The notes beneath the pieces are model-generated. The model did no database searches and had not been told where the DNA came from. It saw nothing but the letters and a program-made list of their open reading frames with translations. Shown here one piece after another: positions 1 to 19,000 of a DNA stretch of 40,191 nucleotides. The number at the start of each line of letters is the position of its first letter. Position 1 is the stretch's first letter. The DNA comes from a virus: IMG/VR virus record IMGVR_UViG_3300042914_002429, positions 1-40,191 of that record. One strand, written 5' to 3'. Made by a program: the position numbers and the translations under genes.

Positions 1-1013
1 ATTCTGGAACATATAGTTTATACGCACCAACAGCAACATCATCTGGAAATGGTAATGGTGCAACATTCACATTTGAGTTTGATGGTGGTGGTACATTAAC
101 CGCAACAACAATAAACACAATTGGTTCAGATTATGTAAATGGTGATACATTATATTTTACTGGGACAGCATTAAATGATTTAACATTACAAATTAATACA
201 CAAGATTTGGGTTATTTTTCAACAATAAGTGGTGGTTATTGTAATACAACAAGCGGTCGTTATTCAATAATTGGTGGTGGAGAGGGCAACACAACAAGTG
301 GAAATTATTCATTTATTGGTGGTGGTTTAGGAAATACAACAAGTGGATACTTCTCAACTATAAGTGGGGGTAATAGTAACGAATCAAACGGAAATTTCTC
401 AACTGTAATTGGTGGTCAACTTAACACAACAAGTGGATGTTTCTCAACTGTAAGTGGTGGTCAAAATAACACATCAAGTTGTTCTAGTTCAACTGTAAGT
501 GGTGGAGAGAATAATATAACTAATGGTGATTACTCATTTATTGGTGGTGGAAGACAAAACCAAAATTTTAAAAGAGGTTCATTTATTGGTGGTGGTTGTT
601 ATAATACAAACATTATAGAAGATTCTGTAATTGGTGGTGGTTGTTATAATACGACAAATGGTAATTTAACTACAATAGTCGGTGGTTCTGGAAATACGGT
701 AAGTACTTCATATTCTATTATTGGTGGTGGTTCATTTAACACATCAAGTGGTTATTCTTCAATTATTGGTGGTGGTTGTTACAATTACACTTGTGGAATG
801 CTTAGTGGTATTTTAGGTGGTTCTGGTAATACAATCAATAACGATTATTCTTTTGTAATTGGACAAGGAATCCCAACCGCATGTCCAAATACAACATATG
901 TAAATTGTTTAAATATTTTTAATTTACCAACTGAAGCAAGTTTACCATTACCACCTGGAACATTATATAGATGTACTTCAGGTACCGGAACACAAATTCA
1001 CGTTGTACCATAA
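1..1013 (+). CDS. Tail fibre/adhesin with YadA-like head repeats (5' end outside window)
   Basis: The reading frame is open from base 3 with no stop until 1013, so the gene starts upstream of the window; the first possible internal start (TTG at 207) lies inside a repeat and is unlikely to be real. About 336 residues are visible. From base 207 to about 870 the protein is a run of degenerate 14-16 residue units of the form N-T-T-S-G-x-Y-S-x-I-G-G-G, the pattern of the beta-roll head of trimeric YadA-type adhesins, which phages use in fibre shafts and receptor-binding tips. The non-repetitive end (about 60 residues, ending in QIHVVP) may be a cap or a joint. A homotrimer at the tail tip that contacts the host surface is inferred. 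Two glycosyltransferase genes lie close downstream. A TATTTAT-led unit starts just after it. Confidence 0.75.
   Translation, partial: SGTYSLYAPTATSSGNGNGATFTFEFDGGGTLTATTINTIGSDYVNGDTLYFTGTALNDLTLQINTQDLGYFSTISGGYCNTTSGRYSIIGGGEGNTTSGNYSFIGGGLGNTTSGYFSTISGGNSNESNGNFSTVIGGQLNTTSGCFSTVSGGQNNTSSCSSSTVSGGENNITNGDYSFIGGGRQNQNFKRGSFIGGGCYNTNIIEDSVIGGGCYNTTNGNLTTIVGGSGNTVSTSYSIIGGGSFNTSSGYSSIIGGGCYNYTCGMLSGILGGSGNTINNDYSFVIGQGIPTACPNTTYVNCLNIFNLPTEASLPLPPGTLYRCTSGTGTQIHVVP
207..870 (+). repeat. Degenerate in-frame repeats encoding YadA-head-like units
   Basis: About 14-15 imperfect copies of a roughly 45-base unit, each with a GGTGGT(GGA/T) core (Gly-Gly-Gly) followed by an AATACAACAAGTGG-like stretch (Asn-Thr-Thr-Ser-Gly). 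The copies vary too much at DNA level to be recent duplications, so selection on the protein fold is the likely cause. Confidence 0.8.
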
Positions 1014-6266: not shown

Positions 6267-6422
6267 ATGGGGAGACCGAAGATTAAACAAGAAGATAAAA
6301 AGGTAAAATTTGGGATAAGTTTAGACCCAAAACTATACCAGAAAATTAAAAATGATGGTCATAAGGTCTCCAGATTAATTGAGAAATTAGTTAGGGATTA
6401 TTATGGAAACAAAGATTTGTAG
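6267..6422 (+). CDS. Small ribbon-helix-helix DNA-binding protein
   Basis: A 51-residue protein beginning MGRPKIKQEDKKVKFGISL. The pattern of one strand (K-V-K-F-G-I-S-L at 12-19) and two helices (P-K-L-Y-Q-K-I-K and V-S-R-L-I-E-K-L-V-R-D-Y-Y) is that of Arc/CopG/MetJ ribbon-helix-helix repressors, which dimerise and insert a two-stranded sheet in the DNA major groove. The gene ends inside the HNH gene (20-base overlap), so the two are made from one mRNA. It may regulate the HNH gene, the polymerase or itself. It is unrelated by eye to the other ribbon-helix-helix gene at 15732-15896 beyond the fold. Confidence 0.7.
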   Translation: MGRPKIKQEDKKVKFGISLDPKLYQKIKNDGHKVSRLIEKLVRDYYGNKDL

Positions 6423-7053
6423 TAAATGTAAAGAGGAAAAAGAATTATGTTTTTTTGGTGTTGACAAAAAAAGGAAAGATGGTTTGAGAGTTTATTGTAA
6501 TGATTGTAGAAAAATAGAGAGTCTTGAATACAGAAAAATAAATCCGGAGAAAAGAAAAGAAACCATAAAAAAATATTACGAAAATAATAAAGAAAAAATC
6601 AAAAAAAAAGATAAAATTAGGTTTTTAGAAAATCAAGAAAAAATTAGGGCTATTAAATTAAAATCTTACCATAAAAATAAAACTAAAGACGAACAAATTG
6701 ATAGACGGAGGAAGTATCGTAAATACAAACGAAAAACCGACGTAAAATATAGATTGGCGGACGTTGTTAGACGGAGGATAAAAGATTATATGCAAATAAA
6801 CAACATAACAAAAAAGAATAAAACTTTTGACATTGTCGGTTGTACCCCAGAATTTCTAAAAGAACACATAGAAAAACAATTTAAAGAGGGGATGTCTTGG
6901 GATAATTATGGTTTTTATGGGTGGCACATTGATCATATAATACCATTATCTTCCGCTAAAACCGATGAAGAATTATATAAGTTGTGTCACTATTCAAACC
7001 TACAACCATTGTGGGCTAATGAAAATTTAAGTAAAGGTTCTAAAATCTTATGA
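6403..7053 (+). CDS. Free-standing HNH endonuclease (homing type)
   Basis: A 216-residue protein with an N-terminal zinc-finger-like pair C6-x2-C9 and C32-x2-C35, a long Lys/Arg-rich helical middle (residues 40-120) and a C-terminal HNH core. The core reads W-H-I-D-H-I at 174-179 (His175, Asp177, His178), then N-L-Q-P-L-W at 199-204 and N-E-N at 206-208, the usual end of phage HNH enzymes. Such genes are mobile: the enzyme cuts an allele lacking it and is copied in by repair, often next to replication genes as here, directly after the polymerase. It overlaps the ribbon-helix-helix gene upstream by 20 bases and the converging - strand gene by 6 bases. Nicking versus double-strand cutting cannot be told. 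Confidence 0.88.
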   Translation: METKICSKCKEEKELCFFGVDKKRKDGLRVYCNDCRKIESLEYRKINPEKRKETIKKYYENNKEKIKKKDKIRFLENQEKIRAIKLKSYHKNKTKDEQIDRRRKYRKYKRKTDVKYRLADVVRRRIKDYMQINNITKKNKTFDIVGCTPEFLKEHIEKQFKEGMSWDNYGFYGWHIDHIIPLSSAKTDEELYKLCHYSNLQPLWANENLSKGSKIL

Positions 7054-7422
7054 CATTTTAAGACCGTCAGAACTAACAATATACCAGTTACCTCCAACAA
7101 ATTTAAATTTAACACAAGCACCTTTTTCCAAAAGGAGTTCATCCCACTCTTCATCAATATGACCAACATCTGATTTAACAACAACACTTGTTAATGATTT
7201 AATTGTTATTTTTGATGTTGTTTTAGAGTTAAGTGTAACTTCAGAATTCTCAACATTTTTAACAATTAAAAATGTTTCATCGGTAGTTGTATAAACAGAT
7301 TCGGATATTATTTTATGAACCTCAACCGGTTTTTCAATAATAACTTTTGGTTCAACAACTGTTTGTGTTTGGTATTTAACCACATTTTTTCTTTGTGTAA
7401 GATTATCAATTTTAATACTCAT
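7048..7422 (-). CDS. Uncharacterised protein, probably virion-associated
   Basis: A 124-residue protein that I do not recognise. It starts MSIKIDNLTQRKNVVKYQTQ, has a Val/Ile/Lys/Thr-rich centre likely to be beta strands, and ends with V-G-G-N-W-Y-I-V-S-S-D-G-L, a small beta unit like those at the ends of phage tail or head-decoration proteins. Its ATG overlaps the stop of the connector-like gene by four bases (ATGA), so it is translationally coupled to that gene and probably works with it. It ends the - strand operon and converges on the HNH gene with a 6-base overlap. Confidence 0.45.
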   Translation of the reverse strand: MSIKIDNLTQRKNVVKYQTQTVVEPKVIIEKPVEVHKIISESVYTTTDETFLIVKNVENSEVTLNSKTTSKITIKSLTSVVVKSDVGHIDEEWDELLLEKGACVKFKFVGGNWYIVSSDGLKMS

Positions 7423-8546
7423 ATTACATAAATTTGTCTTGGCATAGCCCTAAATTTAAGGGTTTTATTTAAGTTTTCAGCAAGTAAGGCCTCACGCTCC
7501 ATTACTTTTTCAGGTTTCAATCTTGTAAGTCTTCCTTCAGCACCGATAAGTTCCTCAATTAGTTTTGCTTTTTCATCTTTTGCTTCAGTTGCAAGTGATT
7601 GCCATTCTAATGTTAAATCACCATCTGGTGTTTTCAAATTACCACTAAACTTACCACGAACTTTAGAAAGTGTTTCTTTACAATATGCGATAAACCATCT
7701 TCTAACCCAAACTTGTGCCGGATTATTTAATTCATGCCAACTAATTTTATCAAAAGGCACATCGGAAGGAAGTTTAATAATATCTGGATTGTCTTTTAAA
7801 CATTTATCCCTATCACCAGGACCAACATCATAATACCAATACCAAACCTTACCCTTTGATAATGCCGAATCACCAAAGTCAAATTTACCCCCAGGTGTGT
7901 TCATAAGGTGTATTGCTTTTTTACCATCAGGAAGTGCGGTAATTCTATAAGTTAAATCACCAACAATAATTCTTCTTTGTATGTTTATTTCTTGTTGTCT
8001 TAATAACATATCAAATACTGGCATCATAAAATAACTTCCAGCCATATTACCCATCTGAGCAAGACCTCCACCACCACCAAGACCACCACCAACGCCTAAA
8101 GCACCAAAAGACCAAGGGTCAAACATTGTGTTGTTTAGTGTTGCCGGAGTAAACCACAATAATTCATTTAATTCTCTATTTGCTGGAATTTCATAAATTT
8201 GTTGACCTTTTACTAATTGGATATAATCTTTTTTTAGAACATAATCACCACCAGCCTGTAAACCAACAATTTTAGAATAGGCATATGTATATCTTGTTTC
8301 ATAATCTAAACTTCTTGTTGTGAAAGCTTTTGATAAAGATTGAGTATCAAGATTTAAATTATTTAACGCGGTCCATTGAGATTCAATAAGCCAATCTTGA
8401 ACATACTGTGAATACTCATCAATTGAAAACTCTAAAAGAGTGTCCATTTGCTCATCTTCTAATTCAATACTTCTTAACGGAGCACCAAGTATGTGTCTTA
8501 CTTTTTTATAAAGGTCACTTCTTCCTGGTTCAGATATAATTGCCAT
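7419..8546 (-). CDS. Virion structural protein, neck/connector type
   Basis: A 375-residue protein. The N-terminal 60 residues form acidic helices (L-Y-K-K-V-R-H-I-L-G-A-P-L and D-E-Q-M-D-T-L-L-E-F-S-I-D-E-Y-S-Q-Y-V) like those of head-tail connector proteins. Then comes K-G-Q-Q-I-Y-E-I-P-A-N-R-E-L, a Gly-rich loop (residues about 150-165, with G-G-G-L-G-G-G-G-G-L), a W-Y-W-Y-Y-D-V-G strand and a helical C-terminal third with W-V-R-R-W-F-I-A-Y-C-K. No catalytic motif is seen. The assignment to the neck between head and tail rests on this fold impression and on tail-completion-type genes nearby on the other strand. It is the only large structural gene pair on the - strand here. Confidence 0.45.
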   Translation of the reverse strand: MAIISEPGRSDLYKKVRHILGAPLRSIELEDEQMDTLLEFSIDEYSQYVQDWLIESQWTALNNLNLDTQSLSKAFTTRSLDYETRYTYAYSKIVGLQAGGDYVLKKDYIQLVKGQQIYEIPANRELNELLWFTPATLNNTMFDPWSFGALGVGGGLGGGGGLAQMGNMAGSYFMMPVFDMLLRQQEINIQRRIIVGDLTYRITALPDGKKAIHLMNTPGGKFDFGDSALSKGKVWYWYYDVGPGDRDKCLKDNPDIIKLPSDVPFDKISWHELNNPAQVWVRRWFIAYCKETLSKVRGKFSGNLKTPDGDLTLEWQSLATEAKDEKAKLIEELIGAEGRLTRLKPEKVMEREALLAENLNKTLKFRAMPRQIYVI

Positions 8547-8567: not shown

Positions 8568-10673
8568 TCACGCTTTTGTATTAACTAATCTTCTAAGGTC
8601 TAATTTAAACCTTTCATTCTTAGATAAATTTCTGATAATATCTTGTGGAATGTTGTCACCAAGTCTTGATACACCATATTTATCACCAAGTTGATTAAAA
8701 AGCATTAAAATTTCTTTTGTTTTATCATCACCTAATAAAAATGACTTATAATCATCAATTGATAACGTTGGGAACTGGATTTGACCAGTTAAAACATTTG
8801 AGTCTACAAAAGAAAAAATACCTTTTGAGAAAGTAATTGTTTGTGAACCCTTTTGTTTTGGCGCTCTAAAAATACCTGGAATTTTACATAATTTAACTAA
8901 AGTTTCTCTTGTAAAATAAAACAATTTAATTTGTGTTTTATCTGGTTCTGGAATACCAACTAACATCCCGGTAATTTCTTTAAGTAAATAATTTATTAAA
9001 TCTTCACCAACATTTTTAATATCTGTGTTAGAATGTGTTAAAATTTTCTCAACAAAATCTTCATGTTTAGACAACTCATAAAGTGTTTCTCTATTTTCTT
9101 CACTTCCATTATAATTTTTAATAAATTGAACGACTGATTTTTTTATACTTTTTAAACCAATTTTTTCTGTTGTTAAATTTCTTACAGTTTTACAAGAGAT
9201 AAAATCACCATTAGGTGTCTCAACATCAAAAGGTGAAGTTTGTGAAATTGCTAATTGACCATCTAAAAGACCTGCAACAAGGGCCTCAAAGTCAAAACCT
9301 CTTGTTCTACTTTTAACCCACCTTTGGTAATAATTATTAAATCTATATTTTGATCTTTCACTAACATTATTTAAATCAAGACTCATAAGACCAGATATTT
9401 GTCTATTAAAATTTAAACCCCTCTCAATTTCTGCGGAAATAATATTATCTATTGCTTCTCTTGACGCTTCAGCATCTAAAGGAATAAGACGAATTTTTTG
9501 TAACTCACGACTCATGGCCTTTTTTAAATCTTGATCCATTGTGTCGTTCTCAACGATAATTTGTTTTATGGATTCATTTAATTTCTTTTTTGATTTTGTA
9601 CCATAAAGGTCATTTACAAAATCCCAATTTATATGGTTCCAGAAATTATTTATATACTCGTCTCTTTTATTTTGATATTTTAAATAATAAGCGTGTTCCC
9701 AAAGGTCAAGACCTAATAATGGATATCCACCACCTTTAACAACATCCATAAGTGGATTATCTTGATTTGGTGTAAACATTATTTTTAATTGATTATTTTT
9801 TGTAAGAACTAACCAAGCCCAACCAGAACCAAAACCATCTTTTGCAACCAAATTAAATTCATCTTTTAAATTTTTTAAATTACCAAAATCTTTTTTAATT
9901 TTATCTAAAATTGGCCCATCTGGCTTTTGTTTTTTTGGTGATAACATTTTCCAAAATAATGCATGATTAAATGCACCACCGGCATTGTTTCTAACTTTTG
10001 TATCAAATTTTGAAATAGACTTAACAATGTCCTCAAGTTCCATTTCACCTTTTTTATTAACTAAAGCTGTGTTTAATTTTTTAACATAACCTTTGTAATG
10101 TTTATTATAATGAACGTCCATAGTTTTTGGGTCTACAAACTGTTTCATTGACGCGTAAGAATATGGTAGTTTCTCAATACCAATTCTTTTCATTTCATTT
10201 ATAAAATTATTATGATAGTTAGTTTTTTCAGTTTTTAGAATTTCTTCTTTTAACAAATCCAATTTATTTATAATTGGTTTTGAATTTTCAAAAACAAGTT
10301 CATTATAATCTGGGTATTCCTTCTCAAACATTTTAATTAATCTTCCAGAAAAAGCATTTGCCTCATCTTCATTTTGACCGCCAATGTCTGGACCTCTTTC
10401 TCTACCTAGTACAAGTCTTTGGTATGCATGAACCCATTCGTGACCCAAGGTTCTCATTATATCCCTATTTAATCTATTTTTTGATAAAACTTTAATTTCA
10501 CCATTAATGTTTTGACTACCGGTTGACATTTGACCGATTTTTTTTCCAAGAAAATAAATTTTTAACTCATTCGGAACTGGATAATGTCTATTTATAAATT
10601 TTATAAAATCATTATACATTCTTTTGTCTTCTGGTGTAAGACCAGAATCAATATGTTTAACTTTAACTTTCAT
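8568..10673 (-). CDS. Fusion: zinc-protease-like domain, Mn-type superoxide dismutase, unknown C-terminal domain
   Basis: A 701-residue protein with three parts. Residues 1-130 hold H78-E-W-V-H82 and, 20 residues on, E104-A-N-A-F, the HExxH...E zinc site of gluzincin-like (ImmA/IrrE-style) proteases. Residues 168-357 are a complete Fe/Mn superoxide dismutase: H188 (in V-H-Y-N-K-H), H237 (N-N-A-G-G-A-F-N-H), D323 and H327 (D-L-W-E-H-A-Y-Y) are the four metal ligands, with gate residues H192 and Y196. Gly233 and Gln304 (N-Q-D-N-P-L-M) are the Mn-type choice. Residues 380-701 are unknown; E463, D483 and S493-C-K495 weakly suggest a PD-(D/E)XK nuclease. Between them, L365-N-E and I373-V-E fit (L/I)xE prohead-protease sites. 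It may be a packaged polyprotein. It lies between the helicase and a structural gene, on the same strand. Confidence 0.88.
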   Translation of the reverse strand: MKVKVKHIDSGLTPEDKRMYNDFIKFINRHYPVPNELKIYFLGKKIGQMSTGSQNINGEIKVLSKNRLNRDIMRTLGHEWVHAYQRLVLGRERGPDIGGQNEDEANAFSGRLIKMFEKEYPDYNELVFENSKPIINKLDLLKEEILKTEKTNYHNNFINEMKRIGIEKLPYSYASMKQFVDPKTMDVHYNKHYKGYVKKLNTALVNKKGEMELEDIVKSISKFDTKVRNNAGGAFNHALFWKMLSPKKQKPDGPILDKIKKDFGNLKNLKDEFNLVAKDGFGSGWAWLVLTKNNQLKIMFTPNQDNPLMDVVKGGGYPLLGLDLWEHAYYLKYQNKRDEYINNFWNHINWDFVNDLYGTKSKKKLNESIKQIIVENDTMDQDLKKAMSRELQKIRLIPLDAEASREAIDNIISAEIERGLNFNRQISGLMSLDLNNVSERSKYRFNNYYQRWVKSRTRGFDFEALVAGLLDGQLAISQTSPFDVETPNGDFISCKTVRNLTTEKIGLKSIKKSVVQFIKNYNGSEENRETLYELSKHEDFVEKILTHSNTDIKNVGEDLINYLLKEITGMLVGIPEPDKTQIKLFYFTRETLVKLCKIPGIFRAPKQKGSQTITFSKGIFSFVDSNVLTGQIQFPTLSIDDYKSFLLGDDKTKEILMLFNQLGDKYGVSRLGDNIPQDIIRNLSKNERFKLDLRRLVNTKA

Positions 10674-10678
10674 TAATT

Positions 10679-10685
10679 ATAAATA
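10679..10685 (-). promoter_or_regulatory. TATTTAT leader motif (- strand), 5 nt before the 10673 start
   Basis: ATAAATA on the + strand. It lies in the 30-base gap between the helicase stop and the SOD-fusion start, so that gene may have its own transcript. Confidence 0.45.
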
Positions 10686-10703: not shown

Positions 10704-13565
10704 CTATTTTCTTTTATTTATTAGATTAAGTATTTCCTCCACAACATCAACAGACTCCGAAACCTCATCACCCATTACGGTTCCAATGATTTTCTTTTTG
10801 GTGTTTAATATATCATAGATAACACCTTCAATAGTATTTTCAAAAATTGGATAATATACTAGAACATTATTTTTTTGACCATAACGGTAAGCCCTATCTT
10901 CGGCTTGAGCGTGTTCGGCCGGAACAAAAGATAAGTCATTCATAATTACAGCTTCTGCTGATGTTAATGTGAGACCAACTCCGGCCGCTTTTAAGTTTCC
11001 AACAAAAACTTTTATTTTTTCATTTTCTTGAAATTGGTCAACAGCGTGTTGTCTTTGTACTTTATTACAACTACCATCTAAATACACAGATTCTTTCCCA
11101 AAATGATTATGAATAAGTTGTAACGTATCTGTAAAATTTGTAAAAATAATAACTTTTTTTCCTTGATCTATAATGTTTTGTGCAAACTCAATTGTTTCTT
11201 TTACCTTTTCATTTGCAATTACTTTTCTTACTTTCATTAGTTTTGAAAACTGAACACTAAGTGATGATGACTCTTCTTTTTTATTTTCTAACCATTCGTA
11301 GTATTCACCCATCAAATCTTTATAATCTTTTGATGAGGTTCTCAAATAAACAGGTGTAATAATCTTATCTGGTAAATCAAGGACATCTTCTTTTAATCTA
11401 CGAAGAATTTGACCTGATGTTCTATCTCTCAACTCTTCCAAGTTTGACGCACCCGTAACATTCCATACCTTTCTATTTCCCGCTCTAAATTGATAACCTT
11501 GACAATAACGAATAGCATAAGCCATCCAGTTTTGTGCTACAGGACTTTCAATTATGTTTAATAGGTTGTAATAATTCATCGGACGAGAAGTCATTGGTGT
11601 TCCGGTTAATAACCAAACTCTTTTAACATCTTTTACAAAATTATTTATGATTTTTGTTCTTTGGGCTTGAGCATTTGAAATCATGTGAGCCTCATCCAAT
11701 ATTACTAATTCAAAACCGGATTTTACAAGTAATGAATTTTCTTTATCCTTTGGGTCGTGAAAGTTTTTTAGGATATCGTAATTTACAATAACAAAATCGT
11801 GTTCAGTTGAAAATTTTTTACCTTCAGCAATAAAAACAGATCTATCTGAATAATTTGCAATTTCTCTTTCCCAATTTATTTTAAGTGATGCCGGACAAAT
11901 AATCAAAATCTTTTTTGCCCCAGTCTCAAGAGCTGCGATAATTGTGGAAGTAGTGTTATGTGTTACAATACAATGTTCTGTAACATATAATTTATCTGGA
12001 GCGTCAACTGAAATACAAACACTTTCTTCAAATCCAACCTTTTCAATATTTTTAATATATCTCCCAGTTGGGTATTTTGTTGGTTCAACATATCGTTCAG
12101 CTTTTCGTTTTAATCTAAATGGATTCATTCCAGTTGGTAATTTAATATTAACCCTATACGCTAATTTACCTTTCTTTTTTTCACCTTTATATGTATAAGT
12201 TGGAATACAAGTTTTGACTCTTGCGATACCTCCTAATGTTTGGGTAATCTCAACAACATCATCACAGAGTTGTTTTGACACAGTACAAAATTCAGTTCCT
12301 AAAAACTTCCCACCACCATTAAACATACAATGTCCATCAGTGTCCATTAATCCTTGTAGAATTGATAATCTATTTTCAATTGATGAATATTTGTATATTT
12401 CTGGAATAAATTTATTAATTGACCTAGTGTGTTCAATACCTAACTCATATAAAGATAACCCCACATTAATAGACCCAATTCTTTTATTACCTTGTGGTTT
12501 ATTTTCTTTTAAATTTAATAAGGTGAATAAGTTATCATAATCATCTTTATGGGCTGAAAATCTAATATTTTTTTTATTAAATGAACCATCACCTAATGCA
12601 AGTCCTAACAAATACGGGTCAATAGGAAGATTATCATTTCGTTCAAATTGTATTGGTTTTACGATTGGGATTTGCCATTTATTATTTCCGTTTGGTGATT
12701 TATAATAGGTTTCAATTTCATATTCCTTATTTTTATTATAGTTAATACCTTTAACTGTAATTTTACCCCCCTCATACATTTGTTTTGTTGATAAAACTAA
12801 AGATTTTTTTATTCTTTCGTTTTTTCTATTTTTACCATAATTGGGGGATGAAACAGACCATAAATGTTCGTCTCCGGATAAAATTGAAAATCCATCATTG
12901 AATGTAATTCTATAAGTTTCCTTTATACCTTGTGGGAATACACCAATTACATTATGTGGTTTACCATCACTACCAATAACCTTATCACCAATTTTTATAT
13001 CACCAATTTTTTTAGTACCTTTAGGTGTATAAACAGGAGTATTAACAGGTAAGAACTTACCCAGCCCCATATCATCAGCCAGAATAAATCTTTTTGACCC
13101 AACAAGTTTTTCAACAGCTTCTTTTTGGTGTGAGAGTGGTGGTCTATGTTCATATTTAGAATAATCAACATCAACTTTCTCAACTGAATGTGTTTTAATT
13201 AAAGATGATTTTGGAACCCAAAATTCAGATAAAACATCTTTCTCAAAAAATTTTCCCCAAATGTGATACGATTTATCTTTTTCAACCAGTAATTTTTCAA
13301 TATAAACTTTTTCTGGGGTTTCAAGCAAGTATCTTTCTGTTGCGAACTTTTTTGCAAAGTAAGTATCAAGAAAAACCCACTTACGAGCTACCTTTGGTTT
13401 TGTGTCAAAATAATTAACAATATAATCTGCTTGGGTTCTTGTTGGATAAAACTTTTTGTTTGTTTCTTTTTTGGATTTCATATAAAGGATATAGTTGTTA
13501 GCCCCACTATATGAGTCCAACAATTCCAAAGCCTTCTGCTCTATTATTTGTTTTTGAATTTCCAA
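10704..13565 (-). CDS. SNF2-family DNA helicase/translocase interrupted by a class 3 intein
   Basis: A 953-residue precursor; removing residues 171-537 leaves a 586-residue SNF2 enzyme. Extein motifs in order: motif I D-D-M-G-L-G-K (164-170) continued by T538, motif II V-I-L-D-E-A-H (621-627), motif III L-L-T-G-T-P (652-657), motif V A-A-G-V-G-L-T-L-T (860-868) and motif VI Q-A-E-D-R-A-Y-R-Y-G-Q (887-897). This is an ATP-driven duplex-DNA translocase, probably for replication-fork or recombination repair. The intein splits the ATP-binding P-loop, so the enzyme is inactive until spliced. The start is a TTG: no ATG lies in frame upstream and a TATTTAT motif sits 10 nt before it. The N-terminal 140 residues are a poorly conserved accessory domain. 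It shares a divergent 85-bp promoter region with the 13651 gene. Confidence 0.93.
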   Translation of the reverse strand: MEIQKQIIEQKALELLDSYSGANNYILYMKSKKETNKKFYPTRTQADYIVNYFDTKPKVARKWVFLDTYFAKKFATERYLLETPEKVYIEKLLVEKDKSYHIWGKFFEKDVLSEFWVPKSSLIKTHSVEKVDVDYSKYEHRPPLSHQKEAVEKLVGSKRFILADDMGLGKFLPVNTPVYTPKGTKKIGDIKIGDKVIGSDGKPHNVIGVFPQGIKETYRITFNDGFSILSGDEHLWSVSSPNYGKNRKNERIKKSLVLSTKQMYEGGKITVKGINYNKNKEYEIETYYKSPNGNNKWQIPIVKPIQFERNDNLPIDPYLLGLALGDGSFNKKNIRFSAHKDDYDNLFTLLNLKENKPQGNKRIGSINVGLSLYELGIEHTRSINKFIPEIYKYSSIENRLSILQGLMDTDGHCMFNGGGKFLGTEFCTVSKQLCDDVVEITQTLGGIARVKTCIPTYTYKGEKKKGKLAYRVNIKLPTGMNPFRLKRKAERYVEPTKYPTGRYIKNIEKVGFEESVCISVDAPDKLYVTEHCIVTHNTTSTIIAALETGAKKILIICPASLKINWEREIANYSDRSVFIAEGKKFSTEHDFVIVNYDILKNFHDPKDKENSLLVKSGFELVILDEAHMISNAQAQRTKIINNFVKDVKRVWLLTGTPMTSRPMNYYNLLNIIESPVAQNWMAYAIRYCQGYQFRAGNRKVWNVTGASNLEELRDRTSGQILRRLKEDVLDLPDKIITPVYLRTSSKDYKDLMGEYYEWLENKKEESSSLSVQFSKLMKVRKVIANEKVKETIEFAQNIIDQGKKVIIFTNFTDTLQLIHNHFGKESVYLDGSCNKVQRQHAVDQFQENEKIKVFVGNLKAAGVGLTLTSAEAVIMNDLSFVPAEHAQAEDRAYRYGQKNNVLVYYPIFENTIEGVIYDILNTKKKIIGTVMGDEVSESVDVVEEILNLINKRK
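11955..13055 (-). mobile_element. Class 3 intein with LAGLIDADG endonuclease
   Basis: A 367-residue protein intron, residues 171-537 of the precursor, placed exactly between Lys170 and Thr538 of the SNF2 P-loop. Its first residue is Phe (TTC), not the Cys, Ser or Ala of standard inteins. It carries the triplet that defines class 3: Trp236 two residues after block B His234 (G-D-E-H-L-W), Cys517 at block F position 4 (S-V-C-I-S-V) and Thr535 in block G (V-T-H-N), with Asn537 last. In this class the block F Cys replaces the N-terminal nucleophile. Two LAGLIDADG-type motifs, L-G-L-A-L-G-D-G-S (320-328) and L-Q-G-L-M-D-T-D-G (403-411), mark a homing endonuclease domain, so the element is potentially mobile. 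Confidence 0.9.
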
Positions 13566-13650: not shown

Positions 13651-14091
13651 ATGAAAAGAATAGTTAGATTAACAGAATCAGATTTAACTCGTATTGTTAA
13701 AAAAATCTTAAAGGAACAAAATGGTTTATTACAATCAGTGGATATTGAAAAAGAAAATAAGTTAAACAAAGAAGCAGAAAAATGTGGTTATATTGGTAAT
13801 AACGCTGGTCTTACATATAAGAATAGAAAATGGAGGTGTCTTACTAATGAAAATATTGCTTGTTATGATTTAAACTATAGTAATATTAATCCTAAATTTA
13901 TTATAAAAAAAATTGAGTCAAAAAAAGACGAATCAAGTAATAAAGATCCATATTCTTATGCTAAATTATCAAATGGAAAATATTGTTTTGCGTATGATTA
14001 TAAAATGGGTAATGTTAAGGATTCTGAAGGGTGGGCTGAACCAAAAACCTCAAAACAATTGCAAACAATAAAAAAAGTATTAGGTGTTTAA
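13651..14091 (+). CDS. Small unknown protein with capsid-targeting-like N-terminus
   Basis: A 146-residue protein. The first 23 residues (MKRIVRLTESDLTRIVKK, then ILKEQ) form a basic amphipathic helix with two (L/I)xE sites, L-T-E at 7-9 and L-K-E at 20-22, the cleavage consensus of the T4 gp21 prohead protease. T4 internal proteins carry such an N-terminal capsid-targeting peptide that is removed in the head. The rest is unknown: Lys-rich, with five Cys (positions about 50, 63, 70, 71-75 region and 112) and a W-R-C and Y-C-F-A-Y-D-Y pair that could form a small disulphide- or metal-stabilised domain. It may be packaged with the DNA and injected. It stands alone between its own TATTTAT motif and a strong terminator. 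Confidence 0.55.
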   Translation: MKRIVRLTESDLTRIVKKILKEQNGLLQSVDIEKENKLNKEAEKCGYIGNNAGLTYKNRKWRCLTNENIACYDLNYSNINPKFIIKKIESKKDESSNKDPYSYAKLSNGKYCFAYDYKMGNVKDSEGWAEPKTSKQLQTIKKVLGV

Positions 14092-14180: not shown

Positions 14181-14693
14181 ATGCAAAACAAAGTTCCAAT
14201 AACAAGACTCGGTAAATTTTTTGGTGATAGTGATTTTAAACTTGAGATTGAAATGGGTCAAGAGTGGTTAATTGGTGATATGAATTACACTTGTGTTCTA
14301 TATCGTGTTGATAGAAATAAAACAAAAACCGACGATGTTTATGGTGAAACTGTTTCAGATGGGATTAAGTTTTTACCACCAGTTGAATTTAATGCTTATG
14401 TTGCAATTGCGGCTCCTGAAAATAAATTTCTTGGAACCACAAAAATGGATCAAGTAGAACCTGGAAATATTACAATGTCAGTTTATTTGAAAACTTTGGA
14501 GGACCTTGAAATTGATATTAGTTTCGGTGATTATGTTGGATATTACGATAATGAATCATTTGTAAGATATTATACGGTTGTAAATGACGGTCGTGTAACA
14601 TCAGATATTAAACACACATATAAAGGGTTCAAACCTTTTTATCGTACCATTATTGCTGCTCCAGTTGGACCTAACGAATTTAGAGGATTATAA
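14181..14693 (+). CDS. Virion protein, probable neck/head-closure type
   Basis: A 170-residue protein from the ATG at 14181. An earlier in-frame ATG at 14127 lies within the terminator hairpin and ahead of the TATTTAT motif, so I reject it. The sequence (MQNKVPITRLGKFFGDSDF, then a D-D-V-Y-G-E motif near residue 52) is mainly beta; D-x-Y-G-E loops occur in head-closure and tail-terminator proteins of several phage families. No enzyme motif is seen. It is followed after one base by the 14695 gene, and both precede the sheath gene, the position of neck and tail-completion genes in T4-like phages. The exact T4 counterpart cannot be named. Confidence 0.45.
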   Translation: MQNKVPITRLGKFFGDSDFKLEIEMGQEWLIGDMNYTCVLYRVDRNKTKTDDVYGETVSDGIKFLPPVEFNAYVAIAAPENKFLGTTKMDQVEPGNITMSVYLKTLEDLEIDISFGDYVGYYDNESFVRYYTVVNDGRVTSDIKHTYKGFKPFYRTIIAAPVGPNEFRGL

Positions 14694-14694
14694 T

Positions 14695-15735
14695 ATGGGA
14701 TTACCAAAAAAAATTAAAAAAAATATTGACCTTATAGAAAAGAAAACTCTTCTACCAAGAAGACATGAGATTGCTGATATGATTTCTCAAGATGGGACGT
14801 ATCTACCAAAATCTTTACTACACCCAGATTTGGATAGAGGTTTTTTAGATTTTGTTCGTGATGAATTAAAATTAACTGTTGAGGGTAAGGTTGTTCCTAT
14901 GGTTGATATTTTAATCACAACACAAAACTGGGCACAATTTACTGAAACTTGGGATTTCCAAAACATAGATAAAAATGTGGAACCACCATTTATTGCGGTT
15001 GTTAGGTCGCCAGAGGTTACATTTGGAAATAACCCATCTATTATGACATATAACATACCAAATAGGAGACAATATTTTTATGCTAAAGTCCCAACTTGGG
15101 ATGGTCAAAGACACGGTTTTGATATTTATAAAATCCCACAACCAGTCCCTGTTGATATAAAATATACAGTTGTAATTGTTTGTAATAGAATGAGAGAATT
15201 AAATAAGTTTAATCAAAATGTTATAACAAAATTTGCATCTAAACAAGCGTATCAAGTAATCAAAGGTCACTACATTCCTATTATTATGGGTAATATTTCT
15301 GACGAATCCGTTTTGGATTTAGAGAAAAGAAAAGTTTATTTACAAAAATATGAAATGACATTACAGGGTTTTTTAATTGACGAGGATGAGTTTGAGATTA
15401 GACCAGCAATTACAAGAACATTTCAAATCTATGAAACGGATTTACAAACTAAAAGAAAAAAACAAAAAAAACAAAACCCTCAGATACCACCAACTTATGT
15501 ACCAACATATAAAGTGGGAAATTTGGTTTCAGTTGAAAAATTCAATTATACGGTAAATTTAAAATTATCAACAAATCAAAATGTTGATGAATATCAAATT
15601 TTTATAAATGATGATTACTATGGTAGTAATTTAACTGAAATCCAAATAAACACTGGGGATCAATTAAGAATTACAATAACAAAAGACGACGATACAAAAG
15701 AAGCTGAAATAATCTTTACACAAGAACTTATTTAA
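14695..15735 (+). CDS. Virion protein, probable tail-completion/neck type
   Basis: A 346-residue protein from the ATG at 14695, one base after the previous stop; the upstream in-frame ATG at 14653 would overlap that gene by 41 bases. The main part (residues 1-255) contains W-D-F-Q-N-I-D near 80, D-I-K-Y-T-V-V-I-V-C-N near 155 and a helix N-K-F-N-Q-N-V-I, then R-P-A-I-T-R-T-F-Q-I. This looks like a tail-tube-end or sheath-terminator protein, though I cannot match a named family firmly. A Lys/Gln-rich linker (about 265-275) leads to a 70-residue beta domain with Y-Q-I-F-I-N-D-D-Y-Y that could be an Ig-like surface domain. It converges on the - strand ribbon-helix-helix gene with a 4-base overlap. 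Confidence 0.45.
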   Translation: MGLPKKIKKNIDLIEKKTLLPRRHEIADMISQDGTYLPKSLLHPDLDRGFLDFVRDELKLTVEGKVVPMVDILITTQNWAQFTETWDFQNIDKNVEPPFIAVVRSPEVTFGNNPSIMTYNIPNRRQYFYAKVPTWDGQRHGFDIYKIPQPVPVDIKYTVVIVCNRMRELNKFNQNVITKFASKQAYQVIKGHYIPIIMGNISDESVLDLEKRKVYLQKYEMTLQGFLIDEDEFEIRPAITRTFQIYETDLQTKRKKQKKQNPQIPPTYVPTYKVGNLVSVEKFNYTVNLKLSTNQNVDEYQIFINDDYYGSNLTEIQINTGDQLRITITKDDDTKEAEIIFTQELI

Positions 15736-15896
15736 TCTTCACCATATATATCTCTTTTTTCTTTACATTTTTCAATAATTAAACTTTCAAGAAACTTATA
15801 CATTTTAAGTCCACGTTTATCACAATACTTTTTTAAAATATTATGAACGTCCTTATCAATCTTTAAATTTTTAATCTTTTTTGAGTCTTGTTCCAT
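15732..15896 (-). CDS. Tiny ribbon-helix-helix-like protein
   Basis: A 54-residue protein starting MEQDSKKIKNLKIDKDVHNI. A strand (I-K-N-L-K-I) is followed by two helices (D-V-H-N-I-L-K-K-Y-C-D-K-R-G and Y-K-F-L-E-S-L-I-I-E-K-C), the Arc/MetJ fold of phage transcription regulators. I chose the ATG at 15896 over a TTG 11 codons upstream that would add a Phe-rich leader. It is transcribed away from the sheath gene; the shared 122-base gap holds TATTTAT motifs in both directions and a TTACGTAA palindrome, so it may repress itself and the tail operon. It overlaps the end of the convergent 14695 gene. Confidence 0.65.
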   Translation of the reverse strand: MEQDSKKIKNLKIDKDVHNILKKYCDKRGLKMYKFLESLIIEKCKEKRDIYGED

Positions 15897-15932
15897 AGGT
15901 AGAAAAAAGGTAGAAAAAAATCTCACCAAAAT

Positions 15933-15939
15933 ATAAATA
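15933..15939 (-). promoter_or_regulatory. TATTTAT leader motif (- strand) for the small ribbon-helix-helix gene
   Basis: ATAAATA on the + strand, 36 nt before the ATG at 15896. Confidence 0.4.
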
Positions 15940-15941
15940 GT

Positions 15942-15955
15942 TTTACGTAAGTAAA
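15942..15955. promoter_or_regulatory. Overlapping dyads in the divergent promoter region (candidate operator)
   Basis: The palindrome TTACGTAA (15943-15950) overlaps a second dyad TTTAC-N4-GTAAA (15942-15955). It sits between the two divergent TATTTAT motifs. Binding by the adjacent ribbon-helix-helix protein is inference. Confidence 0.35.
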
Positions 15956-15975
15956 GTTTTTGACAAAAACAACAA

Positions 15976-15982
15976 TATTTAT
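15976..15982 (+). promoter_or_regulatory. TATTTAT leader motif for the tail sheath gene
   Basis: TATTTAT 36 nt before the sheath ATG. A TTGACA lies at 15960-15965, but only 10 nt upstream of the motif, and no good -10 is found 16-18 nt after it. The leader is A-rich (AAAATTAAAACATAAAATT) with no Shine-Dalgarno sequence. Confidence 0.5.
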
Positions 15983-16018
15983 ATGTAAAATAAAATTAAA
16001 ACATAAAATTAAAAATCT

Positions 16019-19000
16019 ATGGCAACTAACAGTAAAGTATTTGTTTCACCAGGTGTTTATACTTCAGAAGTTGATTTAAGTTTTGTTGCACAAAGTGTTG
16101 GTGTAACAACTTTGGGTATTGCAGGAGAAACTTTGAAAGGTCCTGCTTTTGAACCAATCTTTATCAAAAACTACGATGAATTTCAAGCTTACTTTGGCGG
16201 AACTTCACCTGAAAAATTTGTGAACACACAAATTCCAAAATATGAAGCAGCATATATTGCTAAAGCATATTTACAACAATCAAACCAATTATTTGTTACA
16301 AGAATATTAGGATTATCTGGTTATGATGCCGGACCATCTTGGTCAATTGTTACAAAAGCAAATGTTGACCCATCAACCGTAGAATTCCAATGTTTAAGCG
16401 GTGGAACAGCACCAGAAGATCCTTGTACACCTATTTGTTTGGTACCAAAAACAATTCCATTTATGGTTCCTTTTACAGCTTGTACAAATTCTGAGGATAC
16501 TATCTTATATGGTACATTCCCAACTGTTATTGAAGATATGTTGACTGAACAATATGAAAATTTTGATGGTTCAATTTCAACATTTGATACAAATATTAGA
16601 GATCAAATTTTTAACATTATTACAGATGTAAACCCGTATACCGCTGAAACTGAAAGTATAAATTATTTTGGTACAATATGGGGTGATGATTATGATAATT
16701 TAGTTAGTATTGGATATTCAGCAGAAACAAATGTATTTAATGTTCCTTCACCATCAAGTGATTTAACAGATTATACATCATCATTTAATGATGCTTGGTA
16801 TTATGGTTTGTTTGATAATACAAATAATGGATTATATTCTGGTTATTCTTTCTTTACATTTATTAGTGGATTAACTGAAGTGTTTCCTGTGACCACAACA
16901 ACTACTACATTAGTTCCACCGTCACCAACACCATCAGCAACGCCAATTAACCCTTGTATTACACCAACACCTTTTGCATCCCCAACACCAACACCAACAC
17001 CAGTAAATGTTAGTTGTTATGAAGGAGTTATTGTTGGTCAAGTTTATTTGTATTCTGGTGTTTGTTATACAGACTATGATGATTTGGTGGTTGCAACTTT
17101 AAGATCAAGAGGTATTGCAACATATTCTGATTCTAATAATCCAGTATATGAAGTATCTGATACATCAAATGTAACACTTGATATGACTGGTCAATATAGT
17201 GGTGTACTTAAAAACCCATATTTACCGTTTTCTGTAAATGTTACAAATGATTCTGGGACTAACTTTATTTTTGAAACATCATTTAGTCAATCAGATTCAC
17301 AATATATATCAAAAGTATTTGGTAGTACTAATTTTGGAAAACCAAGAACCTCAACACCATTATTCTTAGAAGAAAGATTCCAAGCTCTTTTAAATTATGG
17401 ATGGAGAAAAGGTTTTATTAGAGGTTTAAGTTCTCAACTTACAGCTCTTGATTCCGCACAAAGTGGTGACCCTAACTCAATTGGTTGGTACTTAGATAAG
17501 TTCCAATCTCCAAGTTCTCCTTGGGTTGTGTCAGAGTTAAGAGGTACTAAAACATTTAACCTATTTAAGTTCTACACAATTTCAGATGGTAACTCAGCAA
17601 ATAGTGAAGTTAAAATTTCAATTATTAATATTTCATTTGCTAACAGAACATTTGATGTGTTAGTAAGAGATTACTTTGATGTTGATTCAAACCCAGTTGT
17701 GATTGAGAAATTTACAAACTGTTCTATGGACCCATCTCAAAATAACTTTATCGCTAAAAAAATTGGTACATTAGATGGTGAGTATGAATTGAATTCTAAA
17801 TATATTATGGTTGAAATGAACGAGGACGCACCAGTTGATGCTGTAGCTTGTGGTTTTGACGGATATACATTTAGAGAATATGTTGGAGTTAGACCGCCAT
17901 TCCCAGTTTATAAAACTAAATATGATTTCCCAGGTGAAGTAATTTATAACCCACCATTTGGTTTAGCCTCTGGTGCTGATGATGCAATTACAAGTTCTGG
18001 TGATAATATTAGAAGAACATATCTTGGTATGTCAAGCAATATTGGGTTTGACACTGATTTCTTTGAGTACTACGGAAAAAGAAACCCAATCTCAACTTGT
18101 GATTTAGAAGGTGGTGAGTGGACTTATAAAACAAGAGGTTTCCATATGGACCAATTTGCAAGTGGAATTACAATTTCAAGCGCTTTTGCAACAAGTGGGA
18201 CACCTAAATATTATGCTGGTGCCGCACCATTCTCTTCTGAACCAACAGAACCAGAGAGTCCATACTACAGATTGTTCTCAAGAAAATTCACTTTATTTGT
18301 GAGTGGTGGATTTGACGGATGGGATATTTATAGAGAGTTTAGAACAAACGGTGATAATTACGTATTAGGTCGTAGAGGTTTCTTAAATGGTGCTTGTGTT
18401 TCTGATAGATACCCAACGGCATCAGGATGGGGTGCGTTTAAACAAATTGCTGTTGGTGATGGAACTGTTGATTACGCAAATACAGATTACTATGCTTATT
18501 TACTTGGTATTAGAACGTTTGCAAATCCAGAAGCTGTAAACATTAATGTATTTGTGTCTCCAGGAATTGATTACGTTTATCATAGTGATTTAGTTGAAGC
18601 TACAATTGATATGATTGAAAACGATAGAGCGGATTCACTTTATATTACAACAACACCAGACTACAATATGTTTGTAGCATCAACAACTGAAGGTGATAAC
18701 TTGATTTATCCTCAAGAAGCTGTTGATAATTTGGAGACAACTGGAATTGACTCTAACTATACTGCAACATATTATCCTTGGGTATTAACAAGAGATAGTG
18801 TAAATAATACACAAATTTATATTCCAGCAACGGCTGAAGTTACAAGAAACTTGGCACTTACTGATAATATTGCATTCCCTTGGTTTGCAGCAGCTGGTTA
18901 TACTCGTGGTATTGTAAATGCAGTTAAAGCTCGTAAAAAATTAACACAAGAAGATAGAGATGTTCTTTATATTGGAAGAATTAACCCAATTGCAACATTT

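Follow-up and report, generated by a model that had tools for sequence, protein, structure and literature searches.

A superoxide dismutase polyprotein of uncultured T4-like phages as candidate internal head cargo

Results

The locus

The DNA analysed here, called the window throughout, is a fragment of ~40 kb covering positions 1 to 40,191 of IMG/VR record IMGVR_UViG_3300042914_002429, and its main features are collected in Table 1. An earlier note on this DNA had described an uninterrupted frame of 701 residues; the frame is there, but on the minus strand, running from 10673 down to 8568. A frameshift or assembly join between its parts, which the note had named as a refutation, is ruled out because the same fusion recurs across many independent contigs, with more than 100 distinct viral HExxH-SOD fusion sequences, including contigs of 257-304 kb. 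No RNA families or tRNAs were found in the window, and neither a protease gene nor a capsid gene is present in the 40-kb fragment.

Table 1. Features of the window around the 701-aa gene (the arrow marks a candidate cut)
Feature	Position	Strand	Basis or remark
Whole gene, 701-aa polyprotein: HExxH domain, superoxide dismutase, C-terminal nuclease-like domain	8568..10673	-	open frame; architecture common to 33 distinct viral proteins
HExxH metallopeptidase-like domain, aa 1-129	10287..10673	-	invariant HExxH and E102; stand-alone copy beside capsid gene in G003
HExxH motif	10428-10442	-	
Linker 1, aa 130-160, disordered; candidate prohead-protease site INE160↓M161	10194..10286	-	pLDDT; P1 Glu and P3 I/L/V kept
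Fe/Mn superoxide dismutase, Mn-type, ligands all intact, aa 161-359	9597..10193	-	Pfam, PDB, model, conservation
Linker 2, aa 360-377, disordered, tag-like KKLNESIKQIIVEN; candidate sites LNE↓S and IVE↓N	9543..9596	-	pLDDT; match to N-terminal tag MNLQESIRRILREE
C-terminal domain Cw, aa 378-701, PD-(D/E)XK restriction-endonuclease-like	8571..9542	-	model, Foldseek, invariant residues
TATTTAT, 5 nt before start codon of the 701-aa gene	10679..10685	-	enriched upstream of ORFs, fixed spacing
Neighbour: head-tail adaptor (Ad2-like)	7419..8546	-	PHROG 211, E=1.8e-9; conserved order beside SOD
Neighbour: small protein with N-terminal tag MKRIVRLTESDLTRIVKKILKEQ	13651..14091	+	TATTTAT 14 nt upstream

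The SNF2-like helicase of the window (10704-13565) is split by an intein with a LAGLIDADG homing endonuclease and measures 953 aa, against 581 aa for its homologue in the 294-kb relative G003; the T4-type portal gene of the 257-kb relative G001 (14400-18422, locus L086) holds an intein with an HNH endonuclease; and a probable HNH homing-type endonuclease, recognised by eye, lies between DNA polymerase B and the neck genes of the window (6403-7053). An ORF of imperfect YSxIxGGxxNTxSG repeats, open at its 5' end (window 207-1013), probably encodes a tail or appendage protein.

Three enzyme-like domains

The middle domain is a superoxide dismutase beyond doubt. The profile search that the earlier note had called for finds both Pfam halves above cut-off, in order and at full length (Sod_Fe_N, PF00081, E=1.1e-18; Sod_Fe_C, PF02777, E=2.4e-38), and the closest PDB match is the MnSOD of Sphingobacterium (5e-60, aa 168-357). 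All four ligands that the note had listed (H188, H237, D323 and H327), the second-shell H192 and Y196, and the Mn-type pair G233/Q304 are invariant in 32/32 diverse relatives, and the fold of the AlphaFold model agrees with MnSOD 6gsc (TM(target) 0.88). The enzyme should be active, and the note's idea of a protection from superoxide would be compatible with this. Bacterial MnSOD has the same full domain, ligands and Gly/Gln pair, whereas the phage enzyme has a propeptide and a fusion partner at either end. The nearest bacterial sequences found come mainly from Bacteroidota, mostly at 44-52% identity; none of 83 bacterial SOD ORFs has the HExxH domain, and the 80 bacterial loci, Bacteroidota in their majority, carry the SOD without it. 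An origin of the whole fusion in bacteria is rejected, as it is not present in any of those 80 loci. Among cultured phages, the nearest capsid belongs to a Microcystis phage, and Flavobacterium phages are also among the nearest; since the bacterial SOD loci are also mostly from Bacteroidota, the host of the phage group is probably to be sought in that phylum.

The first domain has the hallmark of clan MA metallopeptidases (M78/ImmA, SprT), an HExxH followed by a downstream Glu. The earlier note had read H78, H82 and E104 as the zinc site, and the first part of that reading stands, the motif (H78-E79-H82) being present in 118/118 relatives; the third ligand is likelier to be E102 than E104, because position 104 is Phe in the sole stand-alone copy of the domain, where, as in the aligned relatives, E102 is kept. 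Assignment to a family is another matter: the ImmA/IrrE-type peptidase profile that the note had suggested gave no match above the family cut-off, nor did any other Pfam peptidase family; the best scores, obtained with some of the relatives, were those of DUF6055 (E=4e-4) and of SprT-like (E=6e-3). Matches in Pfam, PHROGs, padloc and a PDB profile search were all sub-threshold, with no credible PDB sequence match. The stand-alone protein, encoded in G003 directly after the capsid (MCP) gene, has 130 aa and ends at the equivalent of Glu129 (..KIFE stop).

For the last domain, Cw, the description "no clear family" holds for sequence, where no family match was found, but can be refined from structure: the predicted fold (pTM 0.79) resembles PD-(D/E)XK restriction endonucleases, weakly but consistently. 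The first Foldseek hits in the PDB were NhoI, Eco15I and PvuII, with E of about 0.01-0.05 and none at or below 0.001; for the first two families the probability was 0.98-1.0. Identity is about 12% and TM(target) about 0.5. E463, D483, S493 and K495 are invariant among 24 Cw sequences. Cw differs from these enzymes in its invariant Ser-x-Lys, with Ser where (D/E)xK normally has an acidic residue, although acidic D483 and E463 are present. Its D-x9-SxK spacing equals that of PvuII D58-x9-E68xK70. Two alternative C-terminal types show E...D...QxK, another known form of the PD-(D/E)XK active site; nuclease-like modules thus seem to recur in this position, but with its Ser substitution Cw itself is at most a putative nuclease.

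Relatives and module history

Scanning IMG/VR with the 701-aa protein gave 86 confirmed stretches, 80 of which were kept; with the SOD profile there were at least 589. The distinct proteins comprise 38 with HExxH and SOD alone, 33 with the window-type HExxH+SOD+Cw, and 22, 13 and 8 in which the third place is taken by Cq, Cl and Cs; to these come one four-module protein of 958 aa, four of SOD+Cr and three of SOD only. Three modules, HExxH, Cw and, in many copies, Cs, also occur as stand-alone proteins; the stand-alone Cw, of 343 aa, comes from a 281-kb record (G012) that yielded no SOD and no HExxH. The earlier note knew of no described phage protein so arranged and had proposed a search for the fusion in other phages. 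Its statement fits the isolated-phage collection, in which there is no HExxH-SOD fusion and nearly all matches are to the SOD part only, but the arrangement is widespread in uncultured viruses.

In a tree of 75 SOD domains, the phage enzymes form one clade apart from the bacterial ones. The presence of HExxH needs one change on this tree and the C-terminal type at least 23; with the root on the bacteria, the SOD-only and SOD+Cr proteins fall outside the clade that has HExxH (support 92, not starred). From these changes and the root, it seems that the SOD came first, that HExxH was fused to it once and that the C-terminus is a slot in which modules are swapped. The same history bears on the idea that the protein is a neck- or tail-associated structural component, an intact part of the connector in which the SOD serves mainly for dimerisation. 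The gene does adjoin that of the head-tail adaptor, and the order helicase-SOD-adaptor is kept at all loci inspected, including the window and G003; a C-terminal slot swapped at least 23 times and missing in many relatives, and an HExxH domain missing in others, are nevertheless unlike a structural part, and the SOD ligands are all conserved. We regard this role as very unlikely.

Joints and N-terminal tags

In the predicted structure of the window protein, pLDDT falls below 50 only at aa 129-174 and 363-379, that is, at the two joints. The first carries (I/L/V)-x-E↓M directly before the SOD: in 97/97 distinct proteins P1 is Glu, with I, L and V at P3 in 54, 42 and 1 of them and P2 free, although the regular expression used for this count selected for the site; only three proteins fell outside it, and all three also carry one by eye, making 100 distinct. 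The same segment is the N-terminus of the SOD-only relatives, which makes linker 1 look like the former N-terminal propeptide of an ancestral SOD; it stands at the N-terminus only in SOD-only and SOD+Cr relatives, whereas the window protein begins with HExxH and has its candidate targeting peptide inside. The second joint contains (L/I)xE in 65/65 distinct linkers after the SOD and at least two copies in 51 (shuffle controls gave means of 36 and 10 and maxima of 49 and 22, in tests that ignore shared ancestry). The objection of ancestry weighs less here because the motif recurs ahead of several unrelated C-terminal domains. In 101/101 proteins the P3 residue of Glu129 is hydrophobic (M, V, I or L), but as this residue is mostly M or V, we grade Glu129 as only a possible additional site. 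(L/I)xE is short and common, at about 1.2 times expectation proteome-wide, and the scaffold proteins of these phages show no enrichment of it (p 0.44 and 0.21).

Many small proteins of G001 and G003 begin with tags, of the types MKKIVRLTESDLxRIVKRVIxE, MNLQESIRRILREE and MK(I/Y)(I/L)ITESQ; the second of these heads seven consecutive genes in G001. The pattern LxES[IL][RK]x[IV]xxE occurs in the G001 proteome at four N-termini and at only two internal places, one where two tagged modules are fused in tandem, the other at the second joint of the polyprotein (KKLNESLRKIIVEN). Stand-alone Cs modules begin with tags, and at locus L204 the fusion linker KNIITENQSDKIN is nearly identical to the tag MKIIITENQSDKIN of the adjoining stand-alone paralogues; the stand-alone Cw starts ...HVLNE↓IEGEDLKRLMSREL. 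Because they match the tags of stand-alone or neighbouring proteins, the linkers look like N-terminal tags left over from a time when the genes were separate.

Tandem arrays of unrelated-looking small proteins, each array with one tag, lie at 83916-88128 of G001 (L090; MNLQESIRRILREE) and 1186-2844 of G003 (MKYLITESQ), and their products are candidates for packaging in the head or for injection. Not every protein with a tag need be targeted to the head, since one of them (G001 94481-95479, L090), with peptidoglycan-binding and GH19 domains, resembles a lysin. A tblastn search of phages with a 23-aa tag gave no match, the query being probably too short. Flavobacterium phage immuto, considered as a possible cultured model of tag use, has a gp21-type protease, a Gp23 head and somewhat similar N-termini; the same tags are absent in the 50 kb covered, and it was set aside.

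Head genes and a common upstream motif

T4 gp21 cuts after L/I-X-E (PMC9026906). A gene for a Peptidase_S77, the T4 gp21-type protease, was found in eight relative records, a Gp23 capsid in both records checked (G001 and G003) and a T4-type portal in G001. The capsid N-termini of G001 and G003 end in LINE↓A or LINE↓S, at the position that corresponds to the cut site of T4 gp23.

The heptamer TATTTAT stands 5 nt ahead of the SOD gene not only in the window but also in G001 and G003. About a quarter of ORFs have it in the 40 nt ahead of them (78/272 in G001, 84/329 in G003 and 9/24 in the window, where ~2% is expected), an enrichment of about 15-fold that is strand-specific, with sharp peaks of spacing at 4-6 and 13-15 nt from the start codon. 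Tagged genes have it far more often than others: 18/24 (75%) vs 60/248 (24%) in G001 (p=1e-6) and 12/17 (71%) vs 72/312 (23%) in G003 (p=8e-5). The motif, which on the opposite strand reads as the core of the T4 late promoter TATAAATA, is probably a late promoter element of this phage group and could give near-leaderless mRNAs.

The start signals also bear on a release of the SOD by internal translation from M161, with no proteolysis. M161 is indeed kept in 95/97 distinct proteins, but 81 distinct DNA sequences have no ribosome-binding-like sequence ahead of it (a feature that real starts of the family lack as well), none of the 25 of these inspected for TATTTAT has it there, and in SOD-only relatives the equivalent Met is internal, after the propeptide. 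An internal start is, to us, the least probable of the explanations weighed here and hardly to be expected.

Discussion

We think it rather probable that the 701-aa protein is an internal head cargo polyprotein of a T4-like jumbo phage, which the prohead protease cuts within the capsid and which enters the host by injection along with the DNA. The earlier note had offered, among other possibilities, a virion component on which a prohead protease might act, and this suggestion has gained in support from the conserved (L/I)xE motifs at both joints, the tag shared with other proteins and the gp21-type protease of relatives. From the domains and their conserved sites, the homology of the tags, the T4-type head genes and protease of relatives and the common upstream motif, we infer the following course. 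The polyprotein would be made late in infection, and its capsid-targeting peptides, now internal, would co-assemble it with the prohead core. On maturation, the gp21-type protease would cut after (L/I)xE at INE160, at LNE366/IVE376 and possibly at Glu129, yielding an HExxH metallopeptidase-like domain, a Mn-type SOD of roughly 200 aa and a PD-(D/E)XK-like domain, and the freed domains would be injected together with the DNA. The SOD could then remove superoxide at the very start of infection, before phage gene expression, while the exchangeable C-terminal domain may act on DNA or on host defence. Foreign enzymes furnished with T4 capsid-targeting peptides do enter the head and are delivered to the host (PMC9958956).

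The main rival is an unpackaged enzyme: a soluble, multi-domain auxiliary metabolic protein, made during infection, in which the SOD would shield the host cell from reactive oxygen and the joints would be ordinary flexible linkers. Such a role has been proposed for phage Fe/Mn SOD as an auxiliary metabolic gene (PMC12542629), and the intact SOD residues agree with it. It leaves unexplained, however, why P1 Glu and P3 Ile or Leu should be fixed and P2 free at the start of the SOD, and it accounts neither for the tag homology of joint 2, nor for the propeptide-like N-terminus of SOD-only relatives, nor for the upstream motif common to tagged genes. We consider it unlikely, though still deserving of attention.

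Packaged cargo of this kind would resemble the internal head proteins of T4 (IPI, IPII, IPIII and Alt, with their CTS and gp21 cleavage) in its propeptide-like segments ending in (L/I)xE and, counting relatives, in a gp21-type Peptidase_S77, Gp23 capsid, T4-type portal and exchangeable cargo set. It differs in that its signals would lie inside one chain, where they separate three enzyme-like domains, and in a cargo of SOD, HExxH and nuclease-like modules. Many head proteins of phiKZ-like and SPN3US-like giant phages are cut after Glu by a gp21-like protease and some are ejected; the motif of the ejection proteins is (S/A)xE or AxE, and the parts of these accounts drawn on here do not mention a SOD polyprotein (PMC9026906, PMC5694885). 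Recorded phage SODs (the Pseudomonas phage PA5oct group, Vibrio phage 2.275.O and the freshwater phage MW462191) are likewise of the Fe/Mn family but only 26-34% identical to that of the window, with no match to the flanking modules. The SOD of Megavirus, also reported among packaged virion enzymes (PMC9405923), belongs to another enzyme family (Cu,Zn) and to a eukaryotic virus, and is no polyprotein. Phage SODs as auxiliary genes (PMC12542629), a packaged giant-virus Cu,Zn-SOD (PMC9405923) and T4-type head cargo are thus already known, whereas the collections and literature searched yielded no polyprotein that combines internal targeting peptides with a SOD and a swappable module; a literature search for phage-encoded SOD under that phrase found no papers.

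More tentatively, and with somewhat less than even confidence, we suggest a head-delivered enzyme kit, in which one chain of a protease-like domain, a SOD and a swappable nuclease-like module is packed via its internal targeting peptides, cut in the capsid by the prohead protease and injected as part of a large set of similarly tagged, injected proteins. If this is true, T4-like phages could deliver several enzymes through a capsid-processed polyprotein rather than with one targeting tag per protein, and the polyprotein would have a slot into which new modules drop. The SOD would be, as far as the literature searched shows, the first proposed as phage head cargo, and superoxide at the moment of infection would become a testable factor in the conflict between phage and host. 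The tag rule would, moreover, predict candidate injected proteins of uncultured phages from sequence alone.
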